The position numbers and the translations under genes were made by a program. From IMG/VR virus record IMGVR_UViG_3300036851_000175, positions 1 to 30,970 of that record: 30,970 nt of DNA; one strand, given 5' to 3'. Shown here piece by piece: positions 1 to 30,321 of the stretch (positions are counted from its first letter, which is position 1; every line of letters starts with the position of its first letter). The DNA comes from a virus. A model generated the notes under the pieces. The model saw nothing but the letters and a program-made list of their open reading frames with translations. It had not been told where the DNA came from and ran no database searches.

Positions 1-79
1 AGTCCGCGCGGGCGCTCACGGCGAGAAAAACCGGCGGTGACCAATTTTCCGGCCCAGGTCCGGGTACGGGGGTTCTCAG

Positions 80-4783: not shown

Positions 4784-5013
4784 ATGAGGAGTCTCGACGA
4801 GGCGGCGACGGACGCCCGCAAGCGGCTCTCAGGCGATGTGCTGCAGCAGCGCCTGGACGAGATCCGTGGAAGTGCAAGGCCTGTGGACAGACGAACACGC
4901 CGGTCGTTCAGGCGCGCTCGCAGCTGGGCCCGGACGCCGCGTCAGCGCAGTGGGGGAACATCGCGGCGTGCCCGAACGCGGCGTGCCGGATCGTGTTCTT
5001 CGTTCCGGGATAG
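4784..5013 (+). pseudogene. Zinc-ribbon small protein, interrupted by a one-base frame break
   Basis: The frame opening at ATG 4784 gives a plausible helical N-terminus (SLDEAATDARKRL...QQRLDEI) and then turns into Arg/Ser-rich nonsense after about 4864. From 4864 the frame one base back reads PWKCKACGQTNTPV and later ACPNAACRIVFFVPG, ending at TAG 5011-5013. That part has a CxxC...CxxxxC zinc-ribbon pattern but no start codon of its own. Joining the two parts needs one extra base near 4862-4866 and gives a 76-residue zinc-ribbon protein ending 4 bases before the next gene. The site is not a slippery heptamer, so a missing base (sequencing or mutation) is more likely than programmed frameshifting. 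Biological function unknown. Confidence 0.5.
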
Positions 5014-5017
5014 CGCG

Positions 5018-6451
5018 ATGGCGCAGACGACGATCGCTTTCGCGCGGGCGAACACCGATCGGCACGTAGATACGACCGAGGCGGCGTGGACGAACCCGGC
5101 CAACGTCCAGTCGCCCGACGGGACGACCTCACCCGACGACAATGTCGACGCGTCGGGCACCGCGACGCTGCTTGTACCGCTGGGCATCACCGACTGGGCG
5201 CAGTTTCATCTGCTCGCCGCAGAGGCGGGCTCCGTGTTCTCCGGTCTGAAGATCCCGGTCGGCGCGAGCATCCTCGGGCTGCGGTTTCACTTCGAGGTCA
5301 ACCCGGCGTCGGGCACGCCGACGCAGTTCTACCGGGTGCGGGTCGGGGGAGCGACGGTCACCGAGCAGAGCACGACGGCGACCGGGCGGGCGGTCCGCAC
5401 GATCGGCTATGGCACGCTGAGCGCCGGATCGACGCACGCGATGGGCAACACGTTCAACGGTCGCGACCTGTCCACCGAGGCCGGGCAGAGCGCCGCCCGC
5501 GCGGATCTCGCAGACGGCACGCTGGAACTCGGGTCGCGCGGCAGCGACTCCAACGCCGTCACCTCGTCGACGATCGCGCTGGACTACGCCAAGGTCGAGG
5601 TGTCCTGGGTGCTCTACGCCAACGCGACCGGTGGCGCGAAGGCCACCACGACCGCGGCGGACGCGGGCTCAACCCAGCTCGTGACCCGCAGCGGTGGCGC
5701 GAAGGCCACCACGACCGCGGCGGACGCGGGCTCAACCCAGCTCGTGACCCGCAGCGGCGGGGCGAAGGCCACGACGATCGCGGGCGGTTCACCACACCCA
5801 CTGGTCACGCAGCCCGGCGGCGCGAAGGCTGCCGCTGCGACCGCTGGCGATGCCGGGTCCACCCAGCTCGTCACGCAGGCAGGTGGCGCCAAGGCGACTG
5901 CCAGCGCGGCGGCCATAGGCTCGACGCAACTCATAACACCGACCGGTGGCGCCAAGGCCACGACGAAAGCCGGGGGATCGCCGAAGGTGCAGGTGTCCCG
6001 GGGGGCCTCGGGTGCCTACGCCACCGCGACCGCGGGCGGTTCACCACACCCGCTGGTCACGCAGGCTGGCGGCGCGAACGCAGCAACGGCAGGCAGCGAC
6101 GAAGGCTCCACCCAGCTCGTCACGGCTAGCGGCGGCGCCAAGGCCACCACGAAGGCGGGCGCCGGGGAAACGACCGTCGTCAGCTACGCGATCGCCGGGT
6201 ACGCGCGCGACCGCGCGACCGACGCGATCATCACCACCGGCATCCGGGTCGACGTCTACCGCACCTCCAACCACCAGCACATGGGGCGCGTCACGACCGG
6301 CGCGGACGGCAGATATGCGGTCGCGATCCCCCACACCGGCAACGAGACCGAGACGTTCTGGGTGCGCTTCAAGCAGACCGGGAGCCCCGACCGCTTCGCG
6401 ACTGGCCGTGAGGACCTCACGCTGATCTCGACCGTCGTGCAGGCCGCCTGA
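5018..6451 (+). CDS. Repeat-rich virion fibre/decoration protein
   Basis: 477 residues. I start it at ATG 5018 (MAQTTIAFARA) rather than at 4784, because the upstream 78 residues are the wrong frame of the zinc-ribbon gene. Residues about 1-200 form a beta-rich globular domain of jelly-roll appearance. About 205-385 is a run of 8-9 repeats of roughly 18-23 residues with the core GGAKATT...GSTQLVT, predicted to make an extended Ala/Gly/Thr-rich stalk. About 388-477 looks like a carboxypeptidase-regulatory or Ig-like beta-sandwich (GYARDRAT...GIRVDVYRT...VTTGADGRYAVAIP). The position between portal and protease fits a head fibre or surface decoration. There is no catalytic motif. The architecture (head, repeat stalk, binding domain) suggests attachment to a surface, which is inference. 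Confidence 0.65.
   Translation: MAQTTIAFARANTDRHVDTTEAAWTNPANVQSPDGTTSPDDNVDASGTATLLVPLGITDWAQFHLLAAEAGSVFSGLKIPVGASILGLRFHFEVNPASGTPTQFYRVRVGGATVTEQSTTATGRAVRTIGYGTLSAGSTHAMGNTFNGRDLSTEAGQSAARADLADGTLELGSRGSDSNAVTSSTIALDYAKVEVSWVLYANATGGAKATTTAADAGSTQLVTRSGGAKATTTAADAGSTQLVTRSGGAKATTIAGGSPHPLVTQPGGAKAAAATAGDAGSTQLVTQAGGAKATASAAAIGSTQLITPTGGAKATTKAGGSPKVQVSRGASGAYATATAGGSPHPLVTQAGGANAATAGSDEGSTQLVTASGGAKATTKAGAGETTVVSYAIAGYARDRATDAIITTGIRVDVYRTSNHQHMGRVTTGADGRYAVAIPHTGNETETFWVRFKQTGSPDRFATGREDLTLISTVVQAA
5630..5755 (+). repeat. Two identical 63-bp tandem repeats
   Basis: Copies at 5630-5692 and 5693-5755 are identical and encode the 21-residue unit GGAKATTTAADAGSTQLVTR plus Ser. Diverged copies continue to about 6165, with units varying from about 18 to 23 residues. 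The perfect pair next to diverged neighbours suggests recent slippage or unequal recombination. Confidence 0.9.
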
Positions 6452-13994: not shown

Positions 13995-14729
13995 ATGCAA
14001 CCCGACCCTACCCCGGACACCGTCCGCCTGCTCGACGTCTGTGGGCGTCTACGGTCGCCGGCGACGCTGCCCGGCTTCCACGCTGGGCGCCCACCAGCCA
14101 CGAAGGGCCGACGCTACCCGGCCGATCCGATCGCCGTCGAGGACATCGCCAAGCTGCTGTGGGCGATCAAGCCCGCCAGCGCCGACCGACGCCACCAGCT
14201 CTCCGCGCAGCGCCTGCGCGCGCTGATCGTGCTGCTGTGGCGCTCGGGGCTGCGCATCAGCGAGGCGCTGGCGCTCGAGGAGCGCGACCTCAACCGCGGT
14301 GACTACGCGATCACCGTCCGGCGCGGCAAGGGCGACAAGCGGCGCATCAGCGCCATGGACGACTGGGGCTGGCACGAGCTCCAGGCCTGGCTGGACGTCC
14401 GCCAGCGCCTGCCATTCGGTGCCGTGTTCTGCGTCCTGTCGGGGCCGACGATCGGCCAGCCCCTGTCGTCCACCGATGCTCGCCGGCAGCTGCGCGAGCT
14501 CGGAGCGGCGGCGGGGCTGCGCCGGCGGATCAACCCGCATGCCTTCCGTCACCAACACGCGGTCGAGCTGTGGCGCGAGGGCGTTGACGTGTACGCGATC
14601 CAGCGCCAGCTCGGCCACGCGCGCCTCGACGTGACCGCCGAGTACCTGCGCGGGATCGCGCCGCTCGAGCTGCTCGAGCCGATCGGACGGCGCCGTGCGC
14701 CGACGATGGCGGTGCCGCACGCCGCGTGA
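13995..14729 (+). CDS. Tyrosine recombinase, catalytic domain only
   Basis: 244 residues. ATG 13995 is used because the ATG at 13983 is followed at once by a stop. The protein has all tyrosine-recombinase catalytic residues: Arg87 (SGLRISEAL), a Lys near 113-115 (GKGDKRR), His182 and Arg185 (HAFRH), His208 (QLGHARLD) and the nucleophile Tyr217 (TAEYLRG). The usual N-terminal SAM-like DNA-binding domain is reduced to about 60 residues, and no arm-binding domain is seen. Family members cut and rejoin DNA for integration, dimer resolution or inversion. It lies on the same strand between structural genes, which is odd for a phage integrase. It may be a moron, an integrase moved into the late operon, or an invertase for nearby fibre genes; no invertible repeat was found. 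Confidence 0.85.
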   Translation: MQPDPTPDTVRLLDVCGRLRSPATLPGFHAGRPPATKGRRYPADPIAVEDIAKLLWAIKPASADRRHQLSAQRLRALIVLLWRSGLRISEALALEERDLNRGDYAITVRRGKGDKRRISAMDDWGWHELQAWLDVRQRLPFGAVFCVLSGPTIGQPLSSTDARRQLRELGAAAGLRRRINPHAFRHQHAVELWREGVDVYAIQRQLGHARLDVTAEYLRGIAPLELLEPIGRRRAPTMAVPHAA

Positions 14730-23083: not shown

Positions 23084-23392
23084 ATGGCCGACCTGCCGCA
23101 TATGGCGTGGCCGTTCCGCCTGGGCGCGGTCGTCGAGCAGGACTCCGCCGAGGAGCTCCGCGGGTCCGCGGCGGTGATCGCGTGCACACCGCGCGGTCTG
23201 CGCAACGACAACCCCGGATTCGGCGTGACCTCCCCGCTGTTCGAGCAGCGCCCGATCGACGTGGACCGGATGGCCGCCGAGATCCGGCAGTCCGACCCGC
23301 GGCTGTCGCCCACCGTGGACGAGGTCCTCGACCTCCTCAACGCGACGAGGGCCACGATCCGCGTCGACGTCAGCGGGGCGCGGCGTGCCTGA
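23084..23392 (+). CDS. gp25-like baseplate wedge protein
   Basis: 102 residues, ATG after a strong GAGGAGG site. GPW/gp25 family signs: MAWPFRLGAVVEQDSAEELRGS at the start, then CTPRGLRNDNPGFG, the sequence VTSPLFEQRPID, and a closing DEVLDLLNATRATIRVDVSG. In T4 gp25 joins the wedges and helps start sheath assembly. The end of the gene overlaps the HNH start by 8 bases. Confidence 0.85.
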   Translation: MADLPHMAWPFRLGAVVEQDSAEELRGSAAVIACTPRGLRNDNPGFGVTSPLFEQRPIDVDRMAAEIRQSDPRLSPTVDEVLDLLNATRATIRVDVSGARRA

Positions 23393-23855
23393 CCTTGCGA
23401 AGCGGCTGTGGCGGCGGGTCGACCGCCGATCGCAAGACGAGTGCTGGCCGTGGACCGGATCGCTCAACCCCGAGCGGTTACGGGCAGATCCGCACCGGAG
23501 GCCGGGGCGCGCCCCGGATCAATGCCCACCGCCTCGCCTACATCATCGGCGTGGGGGCGATTCCAGACGGGCTGCTCGTCTGCCATCGCTGCGACAACCG
23601 TACCTGCTGCAATCCGGCGCACCTGTTCCTCGGCACCCACAAGGAGAACACCGCCGACATGCTCGACAAGGGCCGCCATCGCGGCGGCCCGCCGTGCGGC
23701 GAGCGGAACCACAAGGCCAAGCTCACGGACGCACAGCGAGCGGACCTCGTGCAGTCCTACCGCTGCGGCGAAAGCCGGGGCTCGCTGGCGCGTCGATACG
23801 GCATCGCGTGGGCATATCCGTCAACGACATCGTCCGGCGCGCGGAAGGGCGGTGA
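23385..23855 (+). pseudogene. HNH endonuclease broken by two compensating indels
   Basis: GTG 23385 overlaps the end of the gp25-like gene. The first part reads LAKRLWRRVDRRSQDECWPWTGSLNP in one frame. From about 23473 the frame one base on continues SGYGQIRTGGRG, INAHRLAYIIGVGAIPDGL, VCHRCDNRTCCNPAHLFLGT and KENTADMLDKGRH, the His-Asn-His core with its zinc cysteines. After about 23811 the original frame resumes (GISVNDIVRRAEGR, stop 23853-23855). So one extra base lies near 23468-23472 and one base is missing near 23809-23813, both in short G or C runs. Repaired, it gives about 156 residues. Such free-standing HNH genes are mobile invaders of phage operons. Either it is decaying or the sequence has errors. 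Confidence 0.8.
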
Positions 23856-25007
23856 TCGGCCATCTCCGACTACATCGACCTCGCCATTACGACCGACGCC
23901 ACCGCCCTCTACGAGGACGGCATCGAGGCGATCCAGGCGCTCGCCGAACCGGGGTGGGCGCCGAGCCCGATCGAGGAGTGGATCCTCATCGCGGTCGCGC
24001 AGATGGCCGTCGAGGTCGCCGTCCTCGCTGGACAGGTGCCGCTCGCGATCTTCACGTACTTCGGGGAGGCGGTGCTCGGCGTCCCCGCGCTCCAGGCCGC
24101 CCAGGCGACCGGCACCGCCACGTTCACGATGGTCGACATTGCCGGATACACGGTGCCGGCCGGCGCGCAGCTCGACATCGACGGCGTCGCATTCCTGACG
24201 ATCGACGATCTCACCGTCGCCGCCGGTTCGAGCAGCGCCAATACCAACATCGAGGCCGTCGACGCCGGCACCCAGGCGAACGACCTGACTGGCGCCACCG
24301 TGACCCTGGTCGCACCGACCTACGTGTTCGTCGAGTCGGTCGCCCTGTCGGGCACCACGGCCGGCGGGACGGACGCCGAGGATCCCACCGACTACGCCGA
24401 CCGGCTCGCCGACGAGCTGCCTACCCTCTCCCCGAAGGCGATCCTCATCGGGGACTTCGAGGCGCTGGCGCGGCGCAACCCGCTCGTCGGCCGGGCGCTG
24501 GCGATCGACAACTACGACCCCGGGCCGCCCATCGACGCCGCGGCCGAGGGGCACGTCACCGTCGCCGTCCACGACACGGCAGGCGAGGCGCTGGGCTCCT
24601 CCCCCAAGGCGGACATCGCCGCCGACCTCGAGGCCAACCGGGTGCTCAACATCGCCGTGCACGTCATCGACCCCACCTACACCACGGTCGACGTCAGCTT
24701 CACCGCCACCGCCTACGACGACTTCGACGCCGCCACCGTCGAGACGGCCGCCGAGCAGGCGATCACCGACTTCCTCGACCCCGCCACCTGGGGCAGACCC
24801 CCGGGCGGCGACGCGACCGCCTGGATCAACGAGACCACGCTGCGGCGCAACGACCTCTTCGGCGTCCTGTACGACGTGGAGGGCATCCGGCACGTCACCG
24901 CGCTCACCCTCGCACTCGGCGGCGGCGCCCAGGACACGGCCGACGTCACCCTCGCCGGGCCCGCCGCCCTACCGCGTGCGGGAGCCATCTCGGGAAGCGT
25001 CTCCTGA
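23852..25007 (+). CDS. Baseplate J-like protein (start lost to a one-base frame break)
   Basis: The intact frame runs to TGA 25005-25007. Its first Met is at 24003 (334 residues), but the same frame upstream (from 23862: ISDYIDLAITTDATALYEDG, then a PGWAPSPIEEWILIAVAQMA motif) is clearly the conserved N-terminus of J/gp47-type wedge proteins. No ATG, GTG or TTG exists in that frame. A GTG at 23852 with a nearby GGAAGG site lies in another frame and would join if one C at 23860-23861 were removed, giving about 384 residues. The body includes LTIDDLTVAAGSSSANTNIEA and the C-terminal YDVEGIRHVTALTL. J-like proteins form the baseplate wedge backbone. The break is probably a sequence error, as the gene should be essential. 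Confidence 0.85.
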
Positions 25008-25600
25008 TGGCTCGCCCCACGGTCCCCGATGTCGCCGAGCAGCTATACGACGAGCTCGGGGTCAGCCAACCCGCCGATGAGAGCCTCGACTGGCCATTCC
25101 TGATCCTGCTCGCCGGGATCGCGAGCGCGATGGGAGAGCTGCCGTCCATCGTGCGCGACACCGATGATGGCCCCGGCTGGTCGGCGGTCCTTGACCCCCC
25201 GCGAGCGCCCGTGTGGGCGCTGCCTTGGCTGGCGCAGTTCGCCGGCGTGCGACTGACGCCCGGCCTCACAGACGACGAGCACCGAGCCGAAATCACCTCG
25301 CCCCCGGCGTTCCAGCGCGGCACACCGGCGGCGATGATCGCCACCGCCGCCCGGTATCTGACCGGCACCAAGCTGGTCGTGTTCCGTGAGCGTGACGGCT
25401 CCGCCTACCGGGTGAGCATCTCCACCCGCACCGCCGAGACCCCGGACCCGGCGGTCGTCGAGGCGGCGCTGCGTAGACAGAAGCCCGCTGGTCTGATCCT
25501 CGCCTACTCGGTCGCCGATGGCCCCACCTGGCCTGAGCCCACCTCCACGTGGGCGACGGCGACTGGCACCTGGCAAGACGCGATGAGCACCGTCCCCTAG
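25007..25600 (+). CDS. Tail protein I-like baseplate protein
   Basis: 197 residues. ATG 25007 overlaps the J stop; the longer open frame upstream is only the shadow of J. It follows J as P2 gpI does. The N-terminus (PDVAEQLYDELGVSQPADESLDWPFLILLAGI) and the tract WLAQFAGVRLTPGLTDDEHRAEI, FQRGTPAAMIATAARYLTG, then EAALRRQKPAGLILAYSV are typical of tail protein I and related actinophage baseplate proteins, which connect the wedge to fibres. The last 20 residues are Trp/Thr-rich (TWPEPTSTWATATGTWQDA), likely a strand that contacts the next protein. Confidence 0.78.
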   Translation: MARPTVPDVAEQLYDELGVSQPADESLDWPFLILLAGIASAMGELPSIVRDTDDGPGWSAVLDPPRAPVWALPWLAQFAGVRLTPGLTDDEHRAEITSPPAFQRGTPAAMIATAARYLTGTKLVVFRERDGSAYRVSISTRTAETPDPAVVEAALRRQKPAGLILAYSVADGPTWPEPTSTWATATGTWQDAMSTVP

Positions 25601-25607
25601 GAGCACG

Positions 25608-26456
25608 ATGCCTGAAACCGCAAGTGCCCGGCTCGGGCTGGTCGGCCCGTCTGCGACCGATCTGGTCAGCCAGGGTGACGACATCATCCGCGCGATCGTC
25701 GCGCAACTTGAAGTCGTCGCCGCCCGCATCGATTACGGCAGCGCCGCGAGTCGCCCGGCTGCAGGGATCGTCAATCGGTTCTACCGTTCGAGCGACACCG
25801 GCGTGCTGTCGCTGGATACCGGCAGCGCATGGATTGACCTCAACCTCAAGGACGCCGCGGCGGCGACCGCGTCGCTGCGCACGCTGGGCACCGGCGCCAA
25901 GCAGGCCGCCGCTGGCTCTCACGCCGCCCAGCACGCCCGTGGCGGCGCAGACGCGATCCCCGGGCTCCCGCCGATCGGCGGGATGCTGCCCTACGCCGGT
26001 AACGGCGATCCCGCTGGCGGGGACTGGCTGCTCGCCGATGGGCGCCTCATCGACCGCACCACTTACTCGGCGTTCTACACCGCCGTCGGGCATATCTACA
26101 ACGGTGGTGTAGACCCCGGCTCCAACAAGGTGCGCATCCCCGACAAGCGCGGTCGCGCCTCCATCGGTGCGGATAACATGGCGACCGCCCAGGGTGCCGC
26201 CGGGCGTCTACCCAACAGCAACCGGGCGCGCGGCGAGAACGGCGGAGAGGAGCGCCACACCCTCACCAGCGCCGAGGTCCCCAACCTCACCGTCGCCACC
26301 GGATCCGCGTCGGTGCCGGAGACCTCGCCGACCGTCACCGTGCTCGCCCAGCCGGGCACCGGCGGGCCCGTCGACCTCACCGCCAGCGGCGGCGGCGGCG
26401 CCCACACCAACATGCAGCCCTACGAGTGCGATAACTGGCTGGTGCGGGTCCTGTGA
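25608..26456 (+). CDS. Tail fibre with phage collar domain
   Basis: 282 residues, ATG after AGGAGCACG. The N-terminal part (LGLVGPSATDLVSQGDDIIRAIVAQLEVVAARIDYG) is helical. A spacer contains the motif GSHAAQHARGGADAI, common in phage fibres. The C-terminus about 123-190 is a tail collar domain: IGGMLPYAG, GGDWLLADGRLIDRTTYSAFY, then IPDKRGRASIGAD. The protein ends HTNMQPYECDNWLVRVL, as collar proteins often do. It is probably a receptor-binding short fibre. Confidence 0.83.
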   Translation: MPETASARLGLVGPSATDLVSQGDDIIRAIVAQLEVVAARIDYGSAASRPAAGIVNRFYRSSDTGVLSLDTGSAWIDLNLKDAAAATASLRTLGTGAKQAAAGSHAAQHARGGADAIPGLPPIGGMLPYAGNGDPAGGDWLLADGRLIDRTTYSAFYTAVGHIYNGGVDPGSNKVRIPDKRGRASIGADNMATAQGAAGRLPNSNRARGENGGEERHTLTSAEVPNLTVATGSASVPETSPTVTVLAQPGTGGPVDLTASGGGGAHTNMQPYECDNWLVRVL

Positions 26457-26794
26457 GCTACGTCGTCATCTCCCACACCCACGATGAGGAAGCCAGCATC
26501 TACCGGCTCATCGTCGGCCGAGAAGTCACAGACGTCGTCCCCATGCTCGACGAAGACGGCCTGGCCATGCTCGACGAGGACGGCGAGGCGCTCACCGAGC
26601 AGCGCGTCATCGCTTACGAGGACGTCCGCGACTACCTATTCGCCGACGACGACAAGCGCTGGCAGCGGCGCAGCCTCGAGGACGTCGCCCGCGTGCAGCG
26701 CGATCTCGTCCGCGAGGCGATCGACACCGCCTCCGCCGCCCCGCCGGCCACGCTCGAGCCGCGCGCGCTGCCCGGGGTCGGCGAGGCGCTCTGA
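26453..26794 (+). CDS. Hypothetical protein after the tail fibre
   Basis: 113 residues, GTG start overlapping the fibre stop (GTGA). The first 30 residues look like strands (VVISHTHDEEASIYRLIVGREV). A near-duplicate motif follows (PMLDEDGLAMLDEDGEALTEQ), then a charged helical part (DKRWQRRSLEDVARVQRDLVREAID) and an Ala/Pro tail. It is acidic overall. Its place after the fibre suggests a fibre accessory or assembly factor, but no family is recognised. Confidence 0.6.
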   Translation: MSYVVISHTHDEEASIYRLIVGREVTDVVPMLDEDGLAMLDEDGEALTEQRVIAYEDVRDYLFADDDKRWQRRSLEDVARVQRDLVREAIDTASAAPPATLEPRALPGVGEAL

Positions 26795-26813
26795 CCCGCG
26801 TCATCGGTGGAGA

Positions 26814-27125
26814 ATGCCCGAGACCGCAGAGTCACGCCTGCTGCGCATAGAGCGGGAGGTGGCGATACTCGCCGAGCGCTTCGTCGACCTGCGCGCCCGC
26901 GTCAACGATCTCCAGCCGCTGGCGCTGAGCGTCACCCGCCTGGAGTCCGCCGCCATCACGCTCGAGCGTGAGGTGACCAGCATCCGCACCGACCTGGCCA
27001 AGCGCGACAACGAGGCCTCAACCGACCGCCGCGCAACCCGCACGGCGCTGTGGGGCCTGACGAGTGCGATCGTGGCCACGATCATCGGGGCGATCGTCGC
27101 CCTCCTCATCGCGGCCCCCCACTGA
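26814..27125 (+). CDS. Coiled-coil protein with C-terminal transmembrane helix (XhlA-like, possible holin partner)
   Basis: 103 residues. ATG 26814 follows GGTGGAGA; the longer open frame upstream is a shadow. Residues about 5-68 are a charged coiled coil (RLLRIEREVAILAERFVDLRARVNDLQ), and about 78-100 is a hydrophobic helix (ALWGLTSAIVATIIGAIVAL). This matches the layout of XhlA-type haemolysin/holin-associated proteins in Gram-positive phages. It opens the lysis region. There is no proof of hole formation; it could equally be a membrane anchor or scaffold. Confidence 0.6.
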   Translation: MPETAESRLLRIEREVAILAERFVDLRARVNDLQPLALSVTRLESAAITLEREVTSIRTDLAKRDNEASTDRRATRTALWGLTSAIVATIIGAIVALLIAAPH

Positions 27126-27144
27126 GGGGGGCTGGGGCCCGCCG

Positions 27145-27477
27145 ATGGATCCCCTCGCGCGTCGTCTCCGCGCTCTGTATGCGGAGGATGAGCGGCTCTC
27201 CGCTCAGATCGCGACATCCGCAGCCTACGTTGAGCGGGTGCGTGTCCGGGCACAGATCGTCGGGCTCGAGAACGGCACGCTCCTGTGGCTGGAGGAACGC
27301 GCGCACCTACCGGATAGGGAGCGCATTCCATCCGTGCTCGCTGACTCGCTCGGGATCGCACTCTCTTCGGCCAACGACCGCCTGAACCGCCTCTGGAGGG
27401 CTGGTGTTGTGGAACGCACGCCGATCTTTCCCGCCCGGGCCGGCAGACGGTGCTACAGCTACAGGGTCCCGACATGA
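27145..27477 (+). CDS. Winged-helix DNA-binding-like protein
   Basis: 110 residues. ATG 27145 is chosen as the first plausible start after the preceding stop, with a GGGGGCTGGGG tract before it. Residues about 1-50 are helical with a coiled-coil feel. About 50-110 looks like a winged helix: a helix around RERIPSVLADSLGI, a recognition helix SSANDRLNRLWRAGVVER and a wing ending GRRCYSYRVP. This resembles MarR/ArsR-type regulators, but the protein has no ligand pocket I can name. The stop overlaps the start of the receiver gene, so the two are translated together. It may regulate transcription or act as a protein-binding partner. Confidence 0.6.
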   Translation: MDPLARRLRALYAEDERLSAQIATSAAYVERVRVRAQIVGLENGTLLWLEERAHLPDRERIPSVLADSLGIALSSANDRLNRLWRAGVVERTPIFPARAGRRCYSYRVPT

Positions 27478-27959
27478 TGCGCCTGTTGGTGGTCGAGGAC
27501 GATCCGCTCGAGCGTGATCTGCTGGCGGCGCTGCTGCGCGACTATGACCTCACGGTCGCGGTGGACGCCGCTGAGGCGCGCCTAGCCTTGGACGGAGCCC
27601 CGTTCGATGTGGCGTTGTGCGACATAGGGCTTCCCGGCGAGTCCGGAATGAGTCTCATGGCCAGCATCCGCCAGCGCTATCCAGGCACCGCCGTCGTGGC
27701 CGTCAGCGGCTACAGCGACACCGCCACGCTGCTGTCCGCGCTCTATGCCGGCGTGGACAGCTACGTCGTCAAGCCCTACCGCCTTGCCGAGTTGAACGAG
27801 GCGATCGAGCTGGCGCTAAGCAAGGCGGCGCCGCGGGTCAAGTGGGAGATGGGCGCCCGCCAGTCCCAGCGTGCCATCCGTGTGGCACTGCTGGCGGCGA
27901 TCACGGTGGTGGCGGTCGACATCCTGGCGGGCCTAGTTCTTCTCGTCCTGCTCTCGTGA
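27474..27959 (+). CDS. CheY-like receiver domain with C-terminal transmembrane helix
   Basis: 161 residues from ATG 27474 (a second ATG at 27477 follows at once). Numbered from 27477, residues 1-115 are a response-regulator receiver: acidic VVEDDP (Asp8/Asp9), phospho-acceptor Asp49 in LCDIGLPGESG, Ser77 in AVSGYS and Lys99 in VVKPYRL. All key residues are present, so phosphorylation looks possible. Instead of a DNA-binding domain, residues about 132-160 are a hydrophobic membrane helix (AIRVALLAAITVVAVDILAG), placing the receiver on the cytoplasmic side if the N-terminus is inside. No histidine kinase is encoded in the window, so the partner would be a host kinase. A receiver fused to a membrane anchor in a phage late operon is unusual. 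Confidence 0.85.
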   Translation: MMRLLVVEDDPLERDLLAALLRDYDLTVAVDAAEARLALDGAPFDVALCDIGLPGESGMSLMASIRQRYPGTAVVAVSGYSDTATLLSALYAGVDSYVVKPYRLAELNEAIELALSKAAPRVKWEMGARQSQRAIRVALLAAITVVAVDILAGLVLLVLLS

Positions 27960-28684
27960 TGCGCTGGGTCCGTCGGCTCGACCTGCAGACCACGTTGATC
28001 GTGGTGCTGAGCTTCGTCCTCGGCGCGCTCGCCGTCACCGGCGTCGTGCTGGCGATCCTCACTCAAGGCAGGCTCGGCCAGCAGGTCGCCCAGCTCGAGC
28101 GAGTGACCAAGGAGAACCGGGCGCTCATCGAGCGCGTCGACGACAACACCCAGCGGATCTTTGAGCTGCGCCGCGCGCAGATCGACGGGCTGCGCGCCAG
28201 CCTGACTCGCGCCTGCCGGTTCACCAACCGCTCCAACCGGGTGGTCGGCGACCTCGTGAACGTCGCGATCGCCCTGCTGAGCGATCCCGCCTATGCAGGT
28301 GTCACCGAGCGCCAGCGCACCATCCTGCTGCGCCAATACCGCCGGTCCCTGCGCGATCTGCGACCCCGTGACTGCAAGGCGCTGGGCGAGCGCGCGGGCG
28401 GGCAGCTCCCGCCCTCATCATCGTTCGCCCTACCGCCCCCGAACCTACAGCGTGCCCGCGCGCCCACGGAAACCCCGGGGACTCCGGGCCCACGCGGCAG
28501 GACGGGAGCCCGGGGACCACGGGGCAAGCCGGGAGCGGACGGGCAACGCGGCCCACGCGGACCGACCGGCCCCATGGGTCCGCCGGGACCGACCATCGAT
28601 GACCTTGCCGCCCAGGTGCGCGTCCTGATCTGCGACCTGCTGCGCCAACTGCCGGGCAGCCTCGCGCGCCGTCTGCCGTGCTGA
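27959..28684 (+). CDS. Membrane protein with coiled coil and collagen-like repeats
   Basis: 241 residues, ATG overlapping the receiver stop (TGATG). Residues about 10-35 form one transmembrane helix (TTLIVVLSFVLGALAVTGVV). About 38-80 is a coiled coil (LGQQVAQLERVTKENRALIERV). About 80-150 is helical. About 174-212 is a collagen-like run of 13 uninterrupted Gly-X-Y triplets, rich in GPR and GPP. The end (about 213-241) is amphipathic with two Cys (Cys225, Cys241). Collagen triplets in phages are usually trimeric fibre parts; attached to a membrane anchor they suggest a cell-surface trimer exported from the lysogen or host cell, or a membrane-to-wall link. Function not known. Confidence 0.8.
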   Translation: MRWVRRLDLQTTLIVVLSFVLGALAVTGVVLAILTQGRLGQQVAQLERVTKENRALIERVDDNTQRIFELRRAQIDGLRASLTRACRFTNRSNRVVGDLVNVAIALLSDPAYAGVTERQRTILLRQYRRSLRDLRPRDCKALGERAGGQLPPSSSFALPPPNLQRARAPTETPGTPGPRGRTGARGPRGKPGADGQRGPRGPTGPMGPPGPTIDDLAAQVRVLICDLLRQLPGSLARRLPC

Positions 28685-28702
28685 CCTAATCAGGAGGTAG
28701 CC

Positions 28703-28831
28703 ATGTCTCCCCCCGACGACCGGCCCGCGGGCCGAGGCGTCTTCGGTTTCCTGTCCTCGACGGTGTGGGTGGTCGGCCTGATCGTCATTGCCGTCATCGT
28801 GGCGCTCGTCCTGCTCCTCGGCGGCTGCTGA
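28703..28831 (+). CDS. 42-residue single-pass membrane peptide
   Basis: ATG 28703 with AGGAGG (28692-28697) in good position; the stop overlaps the amidase start (TGATG). The frame reads MSPPDDRPAGRGVFGF, then a hydrophobic helix (STVWVVGLIVIAVIVALVLL) and GGC at the end. It lies directly before the endolysin gene, so a small holin or holin regulator is a reasonable guess. Too short for family assignment. Confidence 0.65.
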   Translation: MSPPDDRPAGRGVFGFLSSTVWVVGLIVIAVIVALVLLLGGC

Positions 28832-29889
28832 TGCGCCGCGTTCTCGCTGCGCTCGTCCTGGGCCTCGCGGTCGTCGCGCTGGGTGGCTGTTCGCTCACAT
28901 CCAAGGAGGAGAAGAAGAAGAGCGAAACCCAGCAGGGCGGTCAGCAGGGCAAGGGCGTCGTCGTCGTCAACCTCGACGGCTCCGACGCCAACAAGACGCC
29001 GGACCACACGCTCACCGTCCCCAAGATCGCGGTCAAGCAGCAGGCCCGCCAGAACGAGGACACCGGGGGCAAGGACGAGACCCCGCCCGGCGTGCCCAAG
29101 GCTGACATCGAGGCCGGCCAAGAGCAGCAGAAGCGCCTCGCGCTCAAGGACCTCCTGCCGCTCAACTTGCCGTTCGCCGCGCCATCGACGCCTGGGTGCC
29201 GGTCGAACTTCGTGGCGAACCACAGCTCCCGCAACGGGGTCGCGCCGCACGTGATCTTCATGCACTGGACGGGCTCCGCGAACACCAAGGGCTGGGGGGA
29301 TGTCAACGCGATCACCGCGTGGTTCAACCAGGCCCGGTCGCAGGCGAGCTCCAACTACATCGTGGACGCCGAGGGCAAGTGCAACTACATCGTCCGCGAG
29401 GCCGACAAGAGCTGGACGCAAGCCGCGCTGAACCCGGTCGGCATCAGCTTCGAGATCGTCCACCCCGGCGGGCCGAACGAGCCGTACTGCCCGGGCGCAT
29501 GCCGACGCAAGGTGGCGCACGTCATCGCCGGGATCTCCAAGCGCTGGAAGATCCCGCTGCAGCGCGCGATCGTGCGCGACTGCCGCGTCATCCGGCCTGG
29601 CATCACTGACCACAGGGCGGGTGGGGCGTGCGCCGGCGGACACCCCGACGTGAGTTCGGCTGGGTTCTCCGTGGACCCGATCATCCAGCTCGCCCGCAAG
29701 TACGCCGGGCAAGTCAAGCACCGCTACAAGCCGACCGCCACGGACCGGGTGACGTGCCGGAAGCTCAACTTCTGGAGGACGCATGGCCGACACCATGGCA
29801 AGGCCGAGCGCAACGCCGTGCGCCGCAAGAAGGCGCTGGCCAGACGCGGCGTGGTCTGTACCCGACGAGGCCCACTGAGGACACGATGA
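28831..29889 (+). CDS. Lipoprotein N-acetylmuramoyl-L-alanine amidase (endolysin)
   Basis: 352 residues. ATG 28831 overlaps the previous stop. Residues 1-20 are a lipoprotein signal (RRVLAALVLGLAVVALGGC), with lipobox Cys20. About 21-120 is a charged, Gln/Lys-rich linker. About 125-285 is an Amidase_2/PGRP-type domain: His145 (FMHWTG), the strand SNYIVDAEGKCNYIVRE, GISFEIVHPGG, His261 (GITDHRAGG) and the HPD at 271-273 as candidate zinc ligands. The last 60 residues are basic (RKLNFWRTHGRHHGK...RRKKALARRG), likely cell-wall or DNA-binding. This enzyme cuts the glycan-peptide amide bond. If the signal works, it is exported and lipid-anchored before lysis, so lysis would not need holin transport. 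Confidence 0.85.
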   Translation: MRRVLAALVLGLAVVALGGCSLTSKEEKKKSETQQGGQQGKGVVVVNLDGSDANKTPDHTLTVPKIAVKQQARQNEDTGGKDETPPGVPKADIEAGQEQQKRLALKDLLPLNLPFAAPSTPGCRSNFVANHSSRNGVAPHVIFMHWTGSANTKGWGDVNAITAWFNQARSQASSNYIVDAEGKCNYIVREADKSWTQAALNPVGISFEIVHPGGPNEPYCPGACRRKVAHVIAGISKRWKIPLQRAIVRDCRVIRPGITDHRAGGACAGGHPDVSSAGFSVDPIIQLARKYAGQVKHRYKPTATDRVTCRKLNFWRTHGRHHGKAERNAVRRKKALARRGVVCTRRGPLRTR

Positions 29890-30068
29890 GACTGCCGAGA
29901 ATCCGCCGCCGACCGACGCCAACACTGCGCGACCGGGTCGTGACAGCGGCCACGCCGACCCCGCGCAAGAACGCGATCGTCGCCGTGCTCCTAGCGCTGC
30001 TGCCGGTCGCCGCGCGTCTGATCGCCAGCCGCCGATTCACAACCCCCGACCAGGAGGAATCGAAATGA
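29886..30068 (+). CDS. Small basic membrane protein
   Basis: 60 residues. ATG 29886 overlaps the amidase stop (ATGA). The N-terminus is Arg-rich (RLPRIRRRPTPTLRDR), then one hydrophobic segment (NAIVAVLLALLPVAARLIA) and a short charged end. Position after the endolysin suits a holin-like or lysis accessory protein, but the hydrophobic part is short and the assignment is tentative. Confidence 0.6.
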   Translation: MRLPRIRRRPTPTLRDRVVTAATPTPRKNAIVAVLLALLPVAARLIASRRFTTPDQEESK

Positions 30069-30154
30069 TCCACGCGGAAACCCCGCAGCCGGACCCGGAC
30101 GACCCCGTCCCCGGCGAGCCGGAGCCTGAGCCGGAGCCCGAACCGGCCGAATAG
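30065..30154 (+). CDS. 29-residue acidic Pro/Glu-rich peptide
   Basis: ATG 30065 has a good ribosome-binding site (CAGGAGGAATCG). The stop is at 30152-30154. The product MIHAETPQPDPDDPVPGEPE continues with repeated Glu-Pro. It overlaps the end of the previous gene. Such short EP repeats are stiff and highly acidic. It may not be functional as a protein, but the start site is as good as any in the window. Confidence 0.45.
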   Translation: MIHAETPQPDPDDPVPGEPEPEPEPEPAE

Positions 30155-30193
30155 CGTCAACCGGACCAACCCCCCATCCGGAACGACGAACCA

Positions 30194-30225
30194 GAGCGCC
30201 CCGGCCGAACCAGGCCGGGGCGCTC
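30194..30225 (+). terminator. Hairpin terminator at the end of the late operon
   Basis: A 13-base arm (GAGCGCCCCGGCC) pairs perfectly with its complement across a 6-base loop (GAACCA). The T tract after it is weak (GTCATTTC), as is common in high-GC actinobacterial terminators. It lies 39 bases after the last + strand stop. The symmetric stem could also stop the opposing - strand transcript. The rest of 30155-30321 shows no gene. Confidence 0.85.
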
Positions 30226-30321
30226 GTCATTTCAGGGCGCCCTACTCGTCGTCGATTCGCCATATCATGGTGGTGGCGACGATCGCCGCGAACGTCCCCC
30301 CCGTTTTTGAGCGCGCGCGGC

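Follow-up and report, generated by a model that had tools for sequence, protein, structure and literature searches.

LysF1b of the Mycobacterium phages Girr and NBJ is a lysis protein with a single N-terminal helix in N-out/C-in orientation, and its deletion alters the timing of lysis; it is discussed beside LysZ of phages CL31 and Cog, another single-helix lysis protein (PMC13056207, partial text). Neither a receiver nor collagen is mentioned alongside these two proteins in the available part of that source. The lysis cassettes of Gordonia phages contain several holin-like proteins; the word "collagen" has 0 occurrences in the text of that source, and no receiver appears in its available part (PMC9671378). 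Collagen is found in EPclA of a prophage of enterohaemorrhagic Escherichia coli (EHEC), a collagen-like fibre protein with tail-fibre and trimerisation domains (PMC3368898, partial text), and a survey of jumbo phages described, in its accessible part, a divergent receiver domain linked with NAD-processing enzymes and never associated with histidine kinases (PMC7824862). Among the titles and abstract openings listed in our literature search, which left most subscription journals outside, none concerned a receiver in a phage lysis region; wording for a phage-encoded histidine kinase, response regulator or two-component system did not occur in the literature searched, which was likewise largely without subscription journals. 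Here we analyse three consecutive genes, encoding the proteins P0001, P0002 and P0003, in the virus record IMGVR_UViG_3300036851_000175. The whole stretch, 30,970 bases with coordinates on the plus strand, is called the window. The original prediction had read the three genes as one cassette, made up of a winged-helix-like protein, a receiver tied to the membrane and a collagen-containing membrane protein.

The central protein, P0002, is a CheY-type receiver as predicted (PF00072, E 2e-21, residues 5-112), and its phosphorylation residues are complete: the acidic pair E8/D9, D50, S78, Y97 and K100. The phospho-acceptor had been numbered Asp49, which holds if the second of two ATG codons is the start; counted from the first ATG it is Asp50, the number used below. 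A DNA-binding output domain was not found, PF00072 being the sole Pfam family above cut-off, and the hydrophobic helix that had been proposed to replace it was recovered at residues 142-160 (mean hydropathy 2.82, a value that 46 of 5000 shuffled versions of P0002 attain). Membrane helices were assigned in all proteins from hydropathy in such 19-residue windows. A single-sequence AlphaFold2 model (mean predicted local distance difference test score, pLDDT, 64) showed strands and helices in a receiver-like succession and, in addition, a helix at 130-160, and Foldseek matched this model to receivers with E values down to 3e-10. In NCBIfam, P0002 matches OmpR-type families best. It is the one receiver in the phage records of the window phage, and the histidine kinase family PF02518 had no match in the window record or in record G001; the phosphate donor would therefore be host-derived or a small molecule. 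When P0002 was searched by tblastn, only partial receiver matches were obtained, in 51 phage records and in 1,324 from plasmids, and in no case was 80% of the query covered. The 51 phage matches were rejected as evidence; among those listed (30 of 51) most lack annotation, and the annotated ones are ordinary bacterial regulators.

The genes of the trio overlap as had been read, by ATGA between P0001 and P0002 (4 nucleotides) and by TGATG between P0002 and P0003 (1 nucleotide). Their place in a late row, packed in one reading direction with lysis genes, was also borne out: nine plus-strand frames run from 25608 to 30068 with spacings of -4 to +19 nucleotides, and a scan of 25500-30300, which is blind to other promoter types, found no sigma-70-like promoter and no intrinsic terminator. 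The trio most likely lies inside the lysis region, since this packed row, without a detected promoter or terminator, includes the genes of an XhlA-like protein and an amidase. Gene order, domains, an intact active site, hydrophobic helices and the lack of a kinase match in the phage records are thus what can be read from the sequence itself.

P0003 is predicted to be a membrane protein from its N-terminal hydropathy window (residues 13-31, mean 2.78, reached by 1 of 5000 shuffles). The 13 collagen triplets are real, an uninterrupted G-X-Y run at residues 174-212 (PF01391, E 4e-7), whereas the longest run in 2000 shuffles of the protein was 5; there are 4 Cys residues. P0003 may be the surface part of the set, as originally suggested. 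The coiled coil that had also been claimed did not stand, the crude heptad score of residues 35-80 being reached by 2289 of 5000 shuffles. By charge, P0002 and P0003 both look N-in/C-out, the N-terminus of P0003 being positively charged; topology was judged by eye, as were the lipobox, HNH and OmpR-like labels used below. No relative of P0003, nor of its first 162 residues, was found by tblastn in 50,697 phage records, in a search whose low-complexity filter may hide collagen.

For P0001 the winged-helix reading held in part: HTH_24 was matched at E 2.1e-5 (24.4 bits, cut-off 21.9), whereas a clean winged helix did not emerge from the single-sequence model, and the matches to Sta1 and Lrs14 lie far under their cut-offs. 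An OmpR-type regulator split over two genes was ruled out, as Trans_reg_C is not among the six Pfam matches of P0001. A tblastn search at E 0.1 of 50,697 phage and 72,556 plasmid records gave no relative.

Our tentative reading, the one we place first, is that P0002 is a receiver phosphorylated by the host and held at the membrane, where it alters membrane partners to act on lysis or the envelope. An action at the membrane is suggested by four features: an active site that is intact although no output domain is present, a hydrophobic tail, a gene that overlaps that of P0003, and a location among lysis genes. From these features we infer the membrane location, the phosphorylation, the partnership, the effect on lysis and the role of P0001, as follows. 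The trio would be an accessory cassette that a contractile-tailed phage acquired by insertion into its lysis region. The C-terminal helix would hold the orphan receiver at the inner face of the membrane, and Asp50 would be phosphorylated by host kinases or acetyl phosphate. The usual rearrangement of a receiver would then change the oligomeric state of P0002 and of membrane partners made together with it: P0003, whose start overlaps the P0002 stop, and perhaps the XhlA-like P0005 and a 42-amino-acid protein. In this way a host signal might tune the timing of lysis or the weakening of the envelope, while the collagen stalk would carry P0003 outward into the wall and P0001 would modulate how the late operon is transcribed. 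In the usual description, lysis timing is internal to the phage, set by holins, antiholins and membrane potential. If our reading is true, the receiver would connect host signalling directly with phage exit or with the envelope, and its presence among lysis genes suggests that a host signal might influence either.

Looser couplings of a receiver with a membrane protein were found elsewhere. The comparison set held ten other viral receivers, seven from a receiver-alignment scan and three from a second scan, and is not a random sample. Four of the ten (loci L044, L045, L048 and L049) are without a DNA-binding domain, as judged by Pfam for L044, L048 and L049 and by likeness to L044 for L045, and overlap the gene of a small non-kinase membrane protein. 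L048 (IMGVR_UViG_3300021225_000362) is a receiver of 210 amino acids with a C-terminal membrane helix at 177-195, whose gene overlaps by 4 nucleotides that of a 105-amino-acid protein with an N-terminal membrane helix. About 1.2 kb past the receiver gene begins a protein with PG_binding_1 and endolysin-PHROG matches, and the lysis label of L048 comes from this one endolysin-like neighbour. P0002 and the L048 receiver share 29% identity over 56 residues, and their best NCBIfam matches are OmpR-type and NarL-type, respectively. Since the receiver subfamilies differ and the identity is so limited, the resemblance reads as convergence rather than descent. In L049 (4705-5988 of a 53-kb phage record), past head and tail genes, the gene of a 97-amino-acid two-helix membrane protein overlaps a stand-alone receiver, after which comes a protein that has a CHAT domain (PF12770, E 2.7e-7) and ends in a membrane helix. 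L044 (3119-6204) and L045 (3119-6210), from 195-kb records, are closely related (coil proteins 84% identical) and contain a PAS-kinase, a receiver, a long-tailed receiver and a coil-plus-membrane-helix gene with head-to-tail overlaps; the first receiver of L044 has an additional, sub-threshold cREC match. The same four-gene order, with an overlapping membrane-helix protein last, occurs in the Microcoleus phage My-WqHQDG (OR578706; L050, 5967-9057), where the kinases are 33% identical to those of L044 over 252 amino acids and the second receivers 39% over 109 amino acids. A membrane-protein family shared by L044 and L050 was rejected, as the coil proteins do not match each other. PF02518 was matched in three of eight records, namely L044, L045 and L050, and not in the window, G001, L048, L049 or L043. 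These three gene rows are possibly the phages' own two-component modules. The special trait common to the four loci and the window is the loss of the output domain together with the overlap with a small non-kinase membrane gene.

Receivers with a membrane tail are supported as rare. In 58 cellular loci (L014-L041 and L069-L098), a non-random sample in which the locus ends truncate some frames, none of 67 distinct receiver open reading frames continues into a membrane helix. One cellular genome-contig scan returned 18 receivers, none actinobacterial by title and none with such a helix. An enrichment in phages is not shown: with P0002 counted, the comparison is 2/15 viral or phage receivers with 0/67 cellular ones (Fisher P 0.03), which depends on the query itself. 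A broader generalisation is put forward with considerable doubt, namely that phages may have repeatedly and independently captured receivers, dropped or replaced the DNA-binding output and coupled the receivers to small membrane proteins, the window phage representing the form in which the receiver itself sits in the membrane.

Several observations weigh against the membrane-switch reading and its generalisation. Left without the query, the viral and phage receivers with a membrane tail number 1/14 as against 0/67 in cells (Fisher P 0.17, not significant); one of the 14 (L047) is incomplete at a contig end and the frame of another (L053) fell outside the helix test. The remaining six of the ten viral receivers, all three from the second scan among them, look ordinary: L043, L046, L054 and L055 contain Trans_reg_C, the OmpR-type output domain, L047 is the one cut by its contig end, and L053 is OmpR-like by eye. 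L053, L054 and L055 adjoin membrane sensor kinases in apparent host DNA, so that a neighbouring membrane protein is in itself ordinary. The partner membrane proteins are not alignable with one another, or align only over the collagen and a short distance beyond. For the coil protein of L044, the best PHROG match is to a family without known function (E 4.5e-7), the holin (E 0.0017) and hemolysin (E 0.0048) matches being weak. There is no recognisable lysis gene near L044, L045 or L050, and the neighbours of L050 include a primase and a helicase. Pattern scans of IMG/VR with P0001, P0002 and P0003, in which distant relatives are missed, found the trio on an identical contig only, the sole extra match being a collagen stretch in locus L007. 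Finally, in phage phiCDHM1 the agr genes come after the lysis genes, and the boundary of tail and lysis genes is a known accessory site according to the part of that source available (PMC3901668).

Hence, the proposal that the three genes form one system stood only in part: in the scans made, their order is confined to one phage, represented by two identical contigs, while a looser receiver/membrane-protein coupling does occur in other, unrelated phage records. The second contig (IMGVR_UViG_3300036850_000081; 41,338 bases) is 100% identical over the compared stretches of 11.5-11.8 kb and runs about 10 kb beyond the window sequence. A known defence system was rejected, as P0001-P0005 gave 0 matches to PADLOC defence profiles at E 0.01.

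The history of the trio was approached through a related phage, G003 (IMGVR_UViG_3300047409_000506), which matches 11 of 31 window proteins at E 1e-3. The two are collinear in the sheath (55%), tube (38%), tape measure (45%), a 637-amino-acid tail-region protein (45%), baseplate J (56%) and the amidase (35%); terminase and capsid are among the window proteins unmatched in G003. Upstream of the G003 amidase, which has 15 PHROG families (13 named endolysin or amidase among those listed), there is a 64-amino-acid frame preceded by a 267-amino-acid frame without a PHROG match, and no trio. The G003 contig stops within the amidase gene, and the absence refers to this one site in the available record. 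Third-position guanine-plus-cytosine (GC) content was compared with that of 21 reference genes, the frames of which were chosen by the analyst. P0001 has a value of 0.755, below 21/21 of them (z -4.2), whereas P0002 (0.857) and P0003 (0.855) are each below 19/21; without its collagen part P0003 has 0.884, below 18/21. The trio is probably an insertion and not ancestral, since the site in G003 lacks it and the third-position GC of P0001 is outlying.

These data speak for an explanation that ranks nearly level with the membrane-switch reading, although we regard it, too, as somewhat improbable: the trio may be a lysogenic-conversion (moron) cassette at an insertion hot spot, altering the surface of the lysogen through the collagen stalk, superinfection exclusion or adhesion, with P0001 and P0002 as regulators. 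The outlying P0001 and mildly low P0002 and P0003 third-position GC would fit such a cassette, as would the G003 site, where tail genes and amidase are shared and only the 64-amino-acid frame separates the 267-amino-acid frame from the amidase. The phage encodes a tyrosine recombinase (PF00589). This explanation comes so close because the phiCDHM1 agr genes, in the portion of PMC3901668 available, already document the insertion of signal genes beside lysis genes. Such a cassette would be expected to be expressed in the lysogen, which is not evident here: the trio is packed with late genes without a terminator, and the sigma-70-type scan found no promoter of its own.

An unlikely explanation is the chance accumulation of accessory genes that act separately, P0003 being a common actinophage single-helix lysis-cassette protein. 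The trio was found in one phage only, and LysF1b and LysZ are established examples of lysis proteins with a single helix (PMC13056207, in part). Moreover, in an unrelated 90-kb phage record (L007, 7392-8330) a membrane-anchored collagen protein lies directly upstream of an amidase-like gene, as seen by eye, and P0003 may for this reason be an ordinary part of a lysis module. The overlaps of 1-4 nucleotides among the three genes and the comparable receiver/membrane-protein couplings in L048 and L049 argue against accumulation by chance. A common family of P0003 and the L007 protein was rejected, as the match covers the collagen stretch and little beyond it, and the L007 protein itself had no match in the phage records. 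Less likely still is a phosphate decoy, in which the tethered receiver, intact, lacking an output domain and without a phage kinase match, would be placed by its tether beside membrane kinases to drain a host envelope-stress kinase and blind the host during lysis, P0003 being an ordinary membrane protein of the lysis region, for this leaves the P0003 overlap and the winged-helix gene without explanation and no host kinase was identified.

The gene row around the trio is given in Table 1. P0005 has no Pfam match and is called XhlA-like from its layout, a coil plus a C-terminal helix, with a phrog_1193 match of E 2.8e-4; its hydrophobic window lies at 82-100 and its heptad score was reached by 22 of 5000 shuffles. 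The 42-amino-acid protein gene is preceded by AGGAGG, and its Phage_holin_2 match (E 0.0046) is below cut-off. P0004 has more than 100 extra N-terminal residues compared with the 35%-identical G003 amidase, which starts without them. It is possibly a lipid-anchored endolysin; an exported, lipid-anchored endolysin would need control after export, which would fit the five single-helix membrane proteins predicted in the region.

Table 1. Genes of the row that contains the trio, in order along the window
Feature	Coordinates	Strand	Observations
Tail-collar domain protein, the final gene upstream of the trio recognisable as a tail gene	25608..26456	+	PF07484, E 3.8e-10; PHROG tail families
113-amino-acid protein	26453..26794	+	no Pfam match; one PHROG match, E 0.069
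P0005, XhlA-like	26814..27125	+	heptad-rich N-terminal part, C-terminal membrane helix; phrog_1193 "hemolysin", E 2.8e-4
P0001, winged-helix DNA-binding-like, 110 amino acids	27145..27477	+	HTH_24
P0002, CheY-like orphan receiver with predicted C-terminal membrane helix, 161 amino acids	27474..27959	+	PF00072
P0003, 241 amino acids	27959..28684	+	N-terminal membrane helix, ectodomain, 13 collagen triplets, Cys-containing C-terminus
42-amino-acid single-helix membrane protein, pinholin-sized	28703..28831	+	hydropathy window 21-39, mean 3.38
P0004, Amidase_2 endolysin with N-terminal lipobox	28831..29889	+	PF01510, E 3.4e-12; LGGC by eye
60-amino-acid single-helix membrane protein	29886..30068	+	hydrophobic window 30-48; overlaps amidase gene by 4 nucleotides

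The window has a GC content of about 70%, and its phage is, by gene content, contractile-tailed, since sheath, tube and baseplate J genes are present together with those of portal, prohead protease, capsid and tape measure; the terminase match is borderline, and the terminase found no match in the phage records. The host is probably an actinobacterium, because the 17 phage records that match the amidase P0004 are all annotated as endolysins of Streptomyces, Curtobacterium or Microbacterium phages and the 12 top-ranked among 1,436 portal matches belong to Arthrobacter phages. No tRNA gene was found in the two stretches scanned. The tyrosine recombinase gene (PF00589, E 1.2e-26; 13995-14729) lies amid the structural genes, between those of a beta-helix-like protein and the sheath. 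Between tail genes, an HNH-endonuclease-like reading is split over the frames 23385-23855 and 23107-24198, possibly a decayed homing endonuclease or, alternatively, a sequencing error. The frame 4784-6451, between the portal and protease genes, contains repeated GGAKAT...STQLVT-like segments.

When the trio is set beside the described systems, P0002 resembles CheY- and OmpR-type receivers (PF00072) in its fold matches, acidic pair, phospho-acceptor Asp, Ser and Lys, and differs from the regulators of these types in lacking an output domain, in its C-terminal hydrophobic helix and in the phage records being without a kinase match. It is unlike the jumbo-phage domain, as far as the partial text describes the latter, in being a standard receiver by profile and in having no NAD-processing neighbour. 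The available text on phiCDHM1 offers a likeness in that signal-transduction genes stand beside phage lysis genes; phiCDHM1, however, has a kinase-type gene without a response regulator, whereas the window has a receiver without a kinase, and the families differ. EPclA, in the part of its description available, shares with P0003 a phage-encoded collagen segment and a further helical segment, but P0003 has an N-terminal membrane helix and, outside the collagen, no fibre domain by Pfam or PHROG. Like LysF1b and LysZ as described in the accessible text, P0002 and P0003 are predicted single-helix proteins from the lysis region of a phage of a presumed Gram-positive host. The LysF1b helix is N-terminal and N-out/C-in according to the same partial text, whereas that of P0002 is C-terminal and that of P0003, although N-terminal, is N-in by charge. 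The L048 receiver is like P0002 in its membrane helix and in that its gene overlaps, by 4 nucleotides, one that encodes an N-anchored membrane protein, and unlike it in being NarL-type, in a locus GC of 28% and in that no collagen or winged-helix gene was seen beside it. XhlA-type proteins belong to PBSX lysis modules; P0005 shares their coil-plus-C-terminal-helix layout, and P0002 has a receiver where XhlA has a coil. The trio thus provides, short of proof of a new system, a known kind of element, the accessory membrane protein of a lysis region, in a build that is new.

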